Positions 40,225 to 51,953 of a stretch of DNA of 53,608 nt are shown here, piece by piece (the stretch's first letter is position 1; every line of letters starts with the position of its first letter). Under the pieces are notes generated by a model that saw nothing but the letters and a program-made list of their open reading frames with translations, was not told where the DNA came from and did not search any database. The stretch comes from a virus: positions 1 through 53,608 of the IMG/VR virus record IMGVR_UViG_3300044984_000739; one strand, 5' to 3'. The translations under genes were made by a program, and so were the position numbers.

Positions 40225-40446
40225 TTATTTAGCGTTATCCCTGTAGTCTATTACAAATCCAATAGCCACAATAATGTTCATGCCACAGGACATTAGTATC
40301 TCATGGATGTCAGCATATACATTTAAAGATAGGTGTACATGACCTACCATCCAAAAAGGTATGGACAAGTTTTGGCTTATCCATACCAATAAGAATTTAC
40401 CAAGGTTGTACACCTTCAACGCAGAAGTTACTACCAACGTATGCAC
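40225..40446 (-). CDS. Putative small membrane protein, start uncertain
   Basis: The open frame gives 73 residues, but its first third overlaps the end of the lipoprotein gene, so the true start may be the internal ATG at 40350 (41 residues). The C-terminus has a hydrophobic segment (MNIIVAIGFVIDYRDNAK) that could be one membrane helix followed by a charged tail. It sits directly behind the lipoprotein gene and may act with it. Confidence 0.45.
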   Translation of the reverse strand: MHTLVVTSALKVYNLGKFLLVWISQNLSIPFWMVGHVHLSLNVYADIHEILMSCGMNIIVAIGFVIDYRDNAK

Positions 40447-41099: not shown

Positions 41100-41133
41100 A
41101 AAAAAGGGTAGGCTACCCCATAAATACCTACCC
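41100..41133 (-). terminator. Leftward terminator hairpin
   Basis: GGGTAGG (41106-41112) pairs with CCTACCC (41127-41133). Read leftward the stem is followed by six T (A run at 41100-41105). It lies in the 104-base gap between the membrane-protein gene and the MazG-like gene and would attenuate the SSB-exonuclease transcript. Confidence 0.75.
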
Positions 41134-46815: not shown

Positions 46816-46898
46816 TTTGTAAGGTTTTAATTGGTTAAGACAGCACCTCGTGAGTGCTGTTTCGACTATTGAAGTCATCTTCAGTTAACCTTTTGTTT

Positions 46899-47694: not shown

Positions 47695-47805
47695 TTATTT
47701 CCATCCCCTTACTTTCATTCGGGATGTTTTGATTAATACTTTGTTAAGAAAATAGCCTATAATCTCATAGCCGTTCTCAATTCTGATGATTTTACTTTCA
47801 ATCAT
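47695..47805 (-). CDS. Small 36-aa early protein
   Basis: Encodes 36 residues: MIESKIIRIENGYEIIGYFL then NKVLIKTSRMKVRGWK. Basic, beta-strand-like. It follows a CTAGAA-CCC leader, which is the chief evidence that it is translated. Confidence 0.55.
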   Translation of the reverse strand: MIESKIIRIENGYEIIGYFLNKVLIKTSRMKVRGWK

Positions 47806-47830
47806 GGGTTCTAGGTTTTATTTGGTTAGT

Positions 47831-47876
47831 GGTGCAGTATGTATCGCTCATATTAATTAGTCACTCTAACTGCACC
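47831..47876. repeat. Inverted repeat downstream of the candidate ncRNA
   Basis: GGTGCAGT (47831-47838) pairs with ACTGCACC (47869-47876) across a 30-base AT-rich loop. It lies between the candidate RNA and the first small gene; it lacks a clean T tract on the leftward side, so its role as a terminator is doubtful. Confidence 0.55.
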
Positions 47877-47899
47877 TTATTTTTGTTACTTGCACCACG

Positions 47900-48134
47900 C
47901 TTATATAGAGGGAATCGAACCCTCACAAGTAGGTTATTTTTTTACATTTATCACCTCCGACCTTTGGTTATGTCTTTTAGCGGTAGTTTTGTATCCTATA
48001 CTACTGATTAGTGCCGATATTAATACCCTCGGTTCGGGGAGTGGTCTGTTTCTCGGGACTTACTGAACTTCAGTGCGGAGATGGATTACCGATTCCATTT
48101 TAATCAAGGCCCGTTGGCCTCTCGAATACTATAA
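47900..48134 (-). ncRNA. Candidate structured RNA ending in a tRNA-like T-arm
   Basis: Read leftward, the segment begins 3 bases behind a TAnnTTTG element and contains an AGGCC-AACG-GGCCT hairpin, the palindrome ACTGAAGTTCAGT, and near its 3' end a perfect T-arm GAGGG-TTCGATT-CCCTC (47924-47908). The 3' segment TATATAA can pair with TTATA at the presumed 5' end, but two of seven positions mismatch. No credible protein is encoded. The 5' ATTCGAGAGG and 3' T-arm recall tmRNA, yet at about 235 bases it is short and no clear tag peptide is seen. Identity is unproven. Confidence 0.5.
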
Positions 48135-48136
48135 CG

Positions 48137-48144
48137 CAAATATA
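48137..48144 (-). promoter_or_regulatory. Leftward TAnnTTTG -7 element for the ncRNA and early operon
   Basis: TATATTTG read leftward (48144-48137) lies directly before the candidate RNA. It is the only convincing -7 element found upstream of the early gene cluster on this strand, so the small early genes may be read from it through the RNA. Confidence 0.6.
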
Positions 48145-50384: not shown

Positions 50385-51953
50385 ATGATAGTAAAAGAGA
50401 TTCACTTTGGCGATGACGGCCAAAAAAAACTAAAGTCTGGCATCAAGAAGATTGCTGGAGCGGTCAAGAGCACCATGGGTGCAAGAGGCAGGACGGTACT
50501 AATAGAGTCCGAGAATCACATTGGCGGTATAACTGTCACAAAGGACGGTGTAACTGTCGCTAGGTCTATCAATCTGTACGATCCAACTGAAAATTTAGCT
50601 GTAATGATGATGCGACAGGCAGCTGATCGCACTGCTGTTGTTGCTGGAGACGGAACCACAACGGCAATTGTGTTGGCAGAGTCTATTATTGACAACGCTG
50701 ACAATATTATCGACAGTGCCGACAATATTACAGAGGTGATACGTGAGATATCTGAGATAACGACTAAAATTTGCTCAAGGTTGAGCAAGATGTCCAAGAA
50801 ATTAAGTGGAAAGAAGCTACTTGACGTTGCCACCATCTCTGCGAATAACGACAGGGAGGTTGGCAAGATGATCGCTGACACATTTGGAAAGGTTAACGTT
50901 GTTACAGTCGAGAACAGTCAGACTCCAAGCACACATGTAGAGATAATCAGTGGAATGAAGATAGATCGGGGGTTCTCTTCTAAGTACTTCATTACTGATC
51001 AAAAAAAGCAGGAGTGTGTACTTGACAATCCGTATGTATTAATTACGGACCACGAGATATCCAACATACTAAACATAGAGAAGGTTATCGCTCACGTGAT
51101 ATCATCAAATAAGTCGTTACTAATCATCGGTCAGCTGAGTGCATCTGCACTAAACACGTTAAACTTGAACGTTGCACAGGGCAAGATAAAGGCCTGTAAC
51201 ATAATCCCACCATCATTTGGATACAGGAGCAAGGACCTGTTGTTTGACTTGTCTGTTTCGTTGGGCGGAACATACTTCTCTGAGGACACTGGTGACGATT
51301 TATCTGTTATTGAGGTTGAGGATCTTGGTCGTGCTTCTAGGGTTATTGTCAACAAGGACATGACGCTATTTATGCCGTTACCAGCCATGACTGATGCGAT
51401 AGACAAGAACATTCAGGTGTTAAAGGAATCAATTGCTGAGACTACAGACGTTAACGAGGTAAACTTTATAAACGAGAGAATCGCAAACATGTCTGGTGGA
51501 ATTGGTATCATATATGTTGGTGCACTTAGCGACATTGAGCAAAAAGAAAAGAAGGACCGTATTGACGATGCTGTGTGTGCTGTTAAGGCTGCACTAGAGG
51601 ACGGGATACTTCCTGGAGGAGGTGTTGCATTGATAGATGCGTTTGACCTTGAGTTTCCAGATGTAAGTACTACGGCTGAAAAGATAATGCTAAACGCTGT
51701 TGCGTCTCCATTTAAGCAGATTGTATTAAACTCTGGCAAGAATCCTGACTTAATTTTGGAAGACATGCCAATCGGTAGGAACTTTGGGTATGACGTGAAG
51801 AACGAGTGCTACGGTGACATGATCGGTATGGGAATTATTGATCCAACTAAGGTTACAAGAAATGCATTGATGAATGCGGTATCTGTTGCAACCACAATAA
51901 TGAGTACAGACGCAATAATAACAAACATAAGAGACTATGAAGGTTCTAAATAG
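50385..51953 (+). CDS. groEL: Phage-encoded chaperonin GroEL
   Basis: Encodes 522 residues and shows the complete group I chaperonin plan. ATP-site motifs: VKSTMGARGRTVLIE (about 28-41), TVTKDGVTVARS with D54 (equivalent of E. coli D52), AGDGTTTAIVLA with D89 (D87), and the catalytic Asp in KDRIDDAVCAVKAALEDG (about 394, equivalent to D398), then ILPGGGVAL. The apical domain is present. The Gly-Gly-Met C-terminal repeat of bacterial GroEL is absent, and sequence is divergent. It would refold large phage virion proteins with the adjacent co-chaperonin. groEL precedes groES, the reverse of the bacterial order. Confidence 0.95.
   Translation: MIVKEIHFGDDGQKKLKSGIKKIAGAVKSTMGARGRTVLIESENHIGGITVTKDGVTVARSINLYDPTENLAVMMMRQAADRTAVVAGDGTTTAIVLAESIIDNADNIIDSADNITEVIREISEITTKICSRLSKMSKKLSGKKLLDVATISANNDREVGKMIADTFGKVNVVTVENSQTPSTHVEIISGMKIDRGFSSKYFITDQKKQECVLDNPYVLITDHEISNILNIEKVIAHVISSNKSLLIIGQLSASALNTLNLNVAQGKIKACNIIPPSFGYRSKDLLFDLSVSLGGTYFSEDTGDDLSVIEVEDLGRASRVIVNKDMTLFMPLPAMTDAIDKNIQVLKESIAETTDVNEVNFINERIANMSGGIGIIYVGALSDIEQKEKKDRIDDAVCAVKAALEDGILPGGGVALIDAFDLEFPDVSTTAEKIMLNAVASPFKQIVLNSGKNPDLILEDMPIGRNFGYDVKNECYGDMIGMGIIDPTKVTRNALMNAVSVATTIMSTDAIITNIRDYEGSK

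Follow-up and report, generated by a model that had tools for sequence, protein, structure and literature searches.

In bacteria, boxA is bound by NusB/NusE and antitermination in rrn operons is established (PMC4807359, PMC10250234). The put leader of phage HK022 is an established case of a phage leader that achieves antitermination without a protein (PMC9378689). For prophage hammerhead ribozymes, in positions like those described below, a role in cleaving long phage transcripts into mRNAs has been proposed (PMC3088659). How Bacteroidota phages keep the polymerase going over long early operons seems little known; literature searches turned up nothing on the subject, and no description of the leader reported here or of its elements.

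The window analysed is a stretch of 53,608 nucleotides (IMG/VR record IMGVR_UViG_3300044984_000739) from a Flavobacterium-type podophage, the terminase of which has 69% identity to that of MW202828 and 44% to that of Flavobacterium elemo phages. The phage encodes its own GroEL (50385-51953, plus strand, phrog_5725), and GroES is also present in related phages. An intergenic region separates divergent gene blocks, and on its minus strand lies the stretch flagged in an earlier note (47900-48144). The early operon runs leftward for ~15 kb, with a leader RNA of ~330 nt at its head (minus strand, about 48130 to 47806). In order, the promoter is followed by a 5' hairpin (AAACGA loop in the family form), one exchangeable module or two, the T-arm hairpin, a three-way junction referred to here as element A, ACUAACCA, and the first ORF. 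The earlier note had ended the segment at the T-arm, but the conserved unit goes on through element A (47823-47878) to the ORF at 47805, and the flagged interval holds only the front two thirds of the leader. A discrete 235-nt RNA, as had been envisaged, is unlikely because the conserved structure continues into the 5' UTR of the operon. The broader suggestion of a new phage ncRNA is supported in that the structured leader is new, and neither it nor its elements are described by any Rfam family.

Relatives of the leader were found in about 30 IMG/VR phage contigs, in which its length is roughly 300-700 nt. Through a 140-aa protein encoded nearby, 20 phage contigs were found, most of which contain parts of the leader RNA, and DNA pattern scans supplied more. 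The middle modules are swapped while the 5' hairpin and the 3' elements stay the same. Covariation in relatives, which had been proposed as a check, is strong in three separate domains: changes on both sides were found for seven of the 12 pairs of the T-arm hairpin (21 distinct sequences, 94.8% of cells paired), eight of the 15 pairs of middle module M1 (nine distinct sequences, 93.3%), and 13 of the 15 pairs of element A (12 distinct sequences, 99.4%). Slid controls reached at most 52% paired for the T-arm hairpin and did not exceed 46% for M1. The folding energy of the whole segment is unremarkable and uninformative (z -0.83). ARAGORN and Rfam 15 identified no known RNA in the stretch, and BLASTn against known phages returned tRNA T-arms as the sole matches, or nothing. 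Matches to a group II intron and a plastid UTR at a permissive threshold were on the opposite strand and far below threshold, and were discarded. The segment had been described as having no ORF; this holds for ORFs of at least 60 aa on the minus strand, but a 60-aa GTG ORF (47829-48011) overlaps it on the plus strand. At about 47940-47960, an ATG-TAA stands behind a perfect Shine-Dalgarno-like GGAGGTGAT; this arrangement is not kept in L006 or L037 and was also set aside.

The start of the segment had been assigned to a strong leftward TAnnTTTG element. A motif of this -7-like form, TATATTTG, is present at 48137-48144 (minus strand), but its frequency in the AT-rich window is not above chance (81 against 66.5 expected, with 6 of 100 shuffles as high) and its position is unconserved in the closest relatives, the site being changed to TAGTCTTG in L004-L006 and without a match in L011, L014, and L021. 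A canonical TTG-N19-TAnnTTTG lies just 5' of the 5' hairpin in sister leaders L045, L048, L059, L067, L084, and L099. The leader promoter is probably near 48137-48144, with the exact motif uncertain. L099 and L100 have promoters in tandem, two in each leader; behind the second lies a separate AAACGA-loop hairpin, the stem of which differs but is compensated. The AGGCC hairpin of the earlier note was confirmed at 48107-48120 (minus strand) as AGGCC-AACG-GGCCT, the 5'-end hairpin, the family form of which is a stem with an AAACGA loop; relatives have AGC-AAACGA-GCU, GGC-AAACGA-GCC, UGC-AAACGA-GCA, or UUAAUC-AAACGA-GAUUAA. The 5' motif TAAGCAAACGAGCT alone matches many coding regions by chance, and only matches behind a promoter were used. 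In a short upstream module lies the D-arm-like hairpin UGGA-AUCGGUAA-UCCA (48082-48097, minus strand), which occurs only in close relatives of the window.

The middle module M1 (47958-48048, minus strand) consists of a pseudoknot, CUCCC/GAGGG, and the hairpins CCGA..UCGG, CUA..UAG, and GAC-AUAACCAAAG-GUC, with covariation in four helices including the pseudoknot. In other leaders, different modules occupy its slot. Alternative modules with GTTCTTTGACATATTGGTA are found in L029, L031, L036, and L230, extended to ...GTAAGACAATAAACA in the first three, where the module starts with GTTCTTTGACATATTGGTAAGACAATAAACA. By sequence, this last motif is the boxA of Bacteroidota rRNA operons, and boxA is present in the sister leaders L029, L031, L036, L048, and L230. 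The best match of the module motif to a Bacteroidota rrn spacer is 92% over 36 nt (E 1.5e-6), and of 120 genomic loci with the core motif, 55 have rRNA marker sequences in the geometry of a 16S-23S spacer; the 120 bacterial loci were gathered by the boxA core pattern, and the independent evidence is the rRNA context together with the extension past the pattern. No boxA was found in the leader of the window itself or in the M3 leaders. L232 holds both boxA and M1, and the two therefore need not be alternatives.

The T-arm GAGGG-TTCGATT-CCCTC that first drew attention to the locus is real and lies at 47908-47924 (minus strand); GGTTCGANTCC has a single occurrence in the window, compared with an expectation of 0.02 from shuffles. 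It belongs to a 52-nt hairpin (47883-47934, minus strand) in which an outer helix, UACUUG/CAAGUA, encloses the T-arm and the invariant UAUAUAAGYGNGGUG. The outer helix covaries, with GUUUG/CAAAC, CCUUG/CAAGG, and GCCUUG/CAAGGC elsewhere, and so does the T-stem, which is GAGGG, GATGG, GGTGG, GTAGG, or GGTAG with matching partners. Near-invariance marks the UUCRAUU loop, the G-C pair that closes it, and UAUAUAAGYGNGGUG, the 3' strand; it was partly imposed by the search patterns, but is seen independently in the loci from the protein search. In L012 the T-arm is lost and the outer hairpin CCUUG-UUACG-CAAGG is left alone, which marks the T-arm as an optional insertion into a helix. A partly matching 5' end (GCGTTATA with TATATAAGC), also reported in the earlier note, proved to be a chance match, as the pairing is not conserved in relatives: TATATAAG does not vary, yet the 5' side fails to complement it in L015, L025, and L036, and UAUAUAAG too is invariant although acceptor pairing fails in the same three. 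The covariance model of the hairpin (R1) scores 76.3 bits in the window and finds one copy per phage record. With phage records as positive controls, neither R1 nor the model of element A (R2) had a match in 299 bacterial genomes from the family to which L147 (Gelidibacter) belongs. A 23-bit R1 match in MW202828 lies within a structural gene and was taken as chance.

Element A (47823-47878, minus strand) is followed by ACUAACCA and scores 80.8 bits with R2 in the window. A 7-bp acceptor-like stem leads into a 4-bp D-like hairpin (5-nt loop), which a UUAA linker joins to a second 4-bp hairpin, this one with a 7-nt loop (AGCGAUA in the window, AGCGAWA in the family); the outline resembles that of a tRNA minus the anticodon arm. 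Of 32 records, 23 have element A, always as a single copy. The first ORF 3' of the leader (47695-47805, minus strand) encodes 36 aa, MIESKIIRIENGYEIIGYF..., with no Pfam match. A 36-aa microprotein (MIESKIIRIENGYEIIGYF.. or MEARVIRIEGIFEVWGFF..) is conserved right behind the leader in the window, L031, L036, L059, L078, and L230. Between 45667 and 47824 (minus strand) the motif AACCTAGAA is repeated directly 5' of the start codons of successive small leftward ORFs.

Across phages, the first ORFs behind the same leader are unrelated, and the leader therefore serves the operon rather than one gene. A single copy at the operon head, terminator-like hairpins within the operon, and boxA in sister leaders make antitermination the best reading, namely that this is a cis-acting processive-antitermination (anti-pausing) leader of the nut/rrn/put type, a proposal held with middling confidence. 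Transcription would start at about 48130 and proceed leftward through the early operon, with the flagged segment as the main leader body. The first few hundred nt of the nascent RNA would form the 5' hairpin together with one exchangeable module or two. In sister leaders the modules would load host elongation factors, NusB/NusE through boxA, while M1 in the window would act directly on RNA polymerase, as put RNA does. This would enable the polymerase to read past terminator-like sites and through the ~15-kb operon. The leader ends, directly ahead of the first ORF, in the T-arm hairpin and element A, which perhaps act as a tRNA-like handle or cut site. Terminator-like hairpins followed by TTTTT are located within the operon at 40358-40387 (12 bp) and 41105-41119 (both minus strand), but sites of this kind on both strands are only in modest excess (12 against 7.0 expected, sd 2.5). 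As expected for a nut/rrn-type leader, the RNA stands ahead of a long operon; however, neither the window leader nor the M3 leaders have a boxA, and L232 carries boxA and M1 at once. Nor does antitermination account for why the T-loop and UAUAUAAG are so strictly conserved.

The strongest competitor, possible but well behind antitermination in probability, is that the T-arm hairpin and/or element A mimic the acceptor/T half of a tRNA. RNase P, RNase Z, or TruB/TrmA would then cut or modify the leader before the first ORF, releasing the leader and setting the mRNA 5' end as hammerheads do at other ORFs. The invariance of the T-loop UUCRAUU and the G53-C61 pair over a covarying stem is consistent with such mimicry, as is the stacking of the 7-bp acceptor-like stem of element A on a 4-bp arm that has seven nucleotides in its loop. 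However, the AGCGAWA loop of element A is no T-loop and ACUAACCA behind it provides no CCA, in L067 element A takes the form of a plain 11-bp hairpin, and the T-arm hairpin is missing from L012, L022, L059, and L078, which keep element A. What keeps the tRNA-mimic idea of the earlier note alive is the pattern of replacement at the junction of leader and ORF, which suggests that the tRNA-like elements may also be processing or enzyme-recruiting sites. In L025, L028, and L231, a minihelix with a true UUCGAUU T-loop stands in the place of element A. In L049, L232, and elemo NC_055854, all without the T-arm hairpin and element A, there is a hammerhead ribozyme at the junction; that of L049 is canonical, although at 29.2 bits (E 2e-5) it scores below the threshold of 34. 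At other ORFs, too, hammerheads extend into the same UAACCA-AUG region. As a further possibility, about as probable, tRNA-like hairpins (the T-loop hairpin and the three-way junction, which has no anticodon arm) and self-cleaving hammerheads could be interchangeable cut sites that part an antitermination leader from the operon mRNA, in a new class of leader; if so, host tRNA-processing enzymes would serve some phages as a ribozyme serves others.

Ahead of early ORFs, 36 distinct hammerheads were found in the loci examined and none in shuffled sequence. The window has one hammerhead-like copy of type I (46833-46890, minus strand), between leftward genes, with the CUGANGA, GAAA, and UH core and three stems but with an additional U ahead of stem II; in relatives that do not have this base, the form is canonical. 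A single additional base at this point is shared by several hammerheads of small type I arrays, in which stem I (GGTTAA/TTAACC) is continuous with the sequence that precedes the start codon; these arrays occur in the window, L004, L005, L007, L008, L011-L015, L021, L022, L029, L031, L048, L067, and L235. In elemo (L053, NC_055854), a type III hammerhead is located on the minus strand at about 18.1 kb, right before the first leftward ORF, with an M1-like GGTCACTC stretch upstream of it.

Release of a discrete trans-acting ncRNA from the leader, as a decoy or regulator, is improbable. The compact conserved structure would suit such an RNA, as would a processing element at its 3' end (the hammerhead in some phages), but the leader is always in cis at the operon head with one copy per record, its modules exchange freely, its boundary tracks the operon start, and no independent terminator was seen between leader and first ORF. 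More improbable still is a riboswitch or attenuator specific to the first ORF: while a complex folded 5' UTR directly before an ORF is what either would look like, no expression-platform terminator was found in the leader, and the unrelated first ORFs argue against a gene-specific device. That the segment is a tmRNA relative (as the earlier note had considered), a degenerate tRNA, or an attP copy of a tRNA 3' end is scarcely credible, because the acceptor-like 5'/3' match is not conserved and ARAGORN is negative, the T-stem changes as compensated pairs, the leader does not form a tRNA cloverleaf with acceptor, anticodon, and CCA/discriminator, GGTTCRATTCCNNCTATATAAGYGNGG is in none of 84,980 bacterial and archaeal species genomes, and, apart from the T-arm sequence itself, the favorable evidence is a match to the Rfam tmRNA model (RF00023) of 14.5 bits against a gathering score of 47, seen at a permissive threshold and limited to the 17-nt T-arm (model positions 347-363). 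Loose ARAGORN settings call tmRNA everywhere, and such calls are meaningless.

The leader family offers defined parts: M1, as a putative boxA-free counterpart to the module with rrn boxA, and two tRNA-like elements that covary strongly and fall outside any Rfam family. It would also join antitermination, tRNA mimicry, and ribozyme processing in one transcript. The leader hairpin shares the 5-bp stem and UUCRAUU loop of the tRNA/tmRNA T-arm, but it has no acceptor pairing, CCA, anticodon, or tag and is enclosed by its own helix, UACUUG/CAAGUA. Like the hammerheads that flank phage genes (PMC3088659), those of this family are located at the leader-ORF junction in some phages and at other ORF starts of the same operons, whereas the window has element A at the junction and its one hammerhead-like copy further downstream. 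Lambda nut is also an early-operon leader RNA, and boxA occurs in part of the leader family; however, no boxB/N pair was identified and the conserved structure of the leader is much larger. HK022 put RNA (PMC9378689) is likewise a structured early-operon phage leader, and a comparable cis action on the elongating polymerase is proposed for the present family; the hosts differ and no sequence relation was found. While M1 is without boxA and the remainder of the leader is unmatched to rrn, the sister leaders share boxA and the bases after it with the Bacteroidota rrn leader/spacer, which is also a promoter-proximal RNA before a long transcript.
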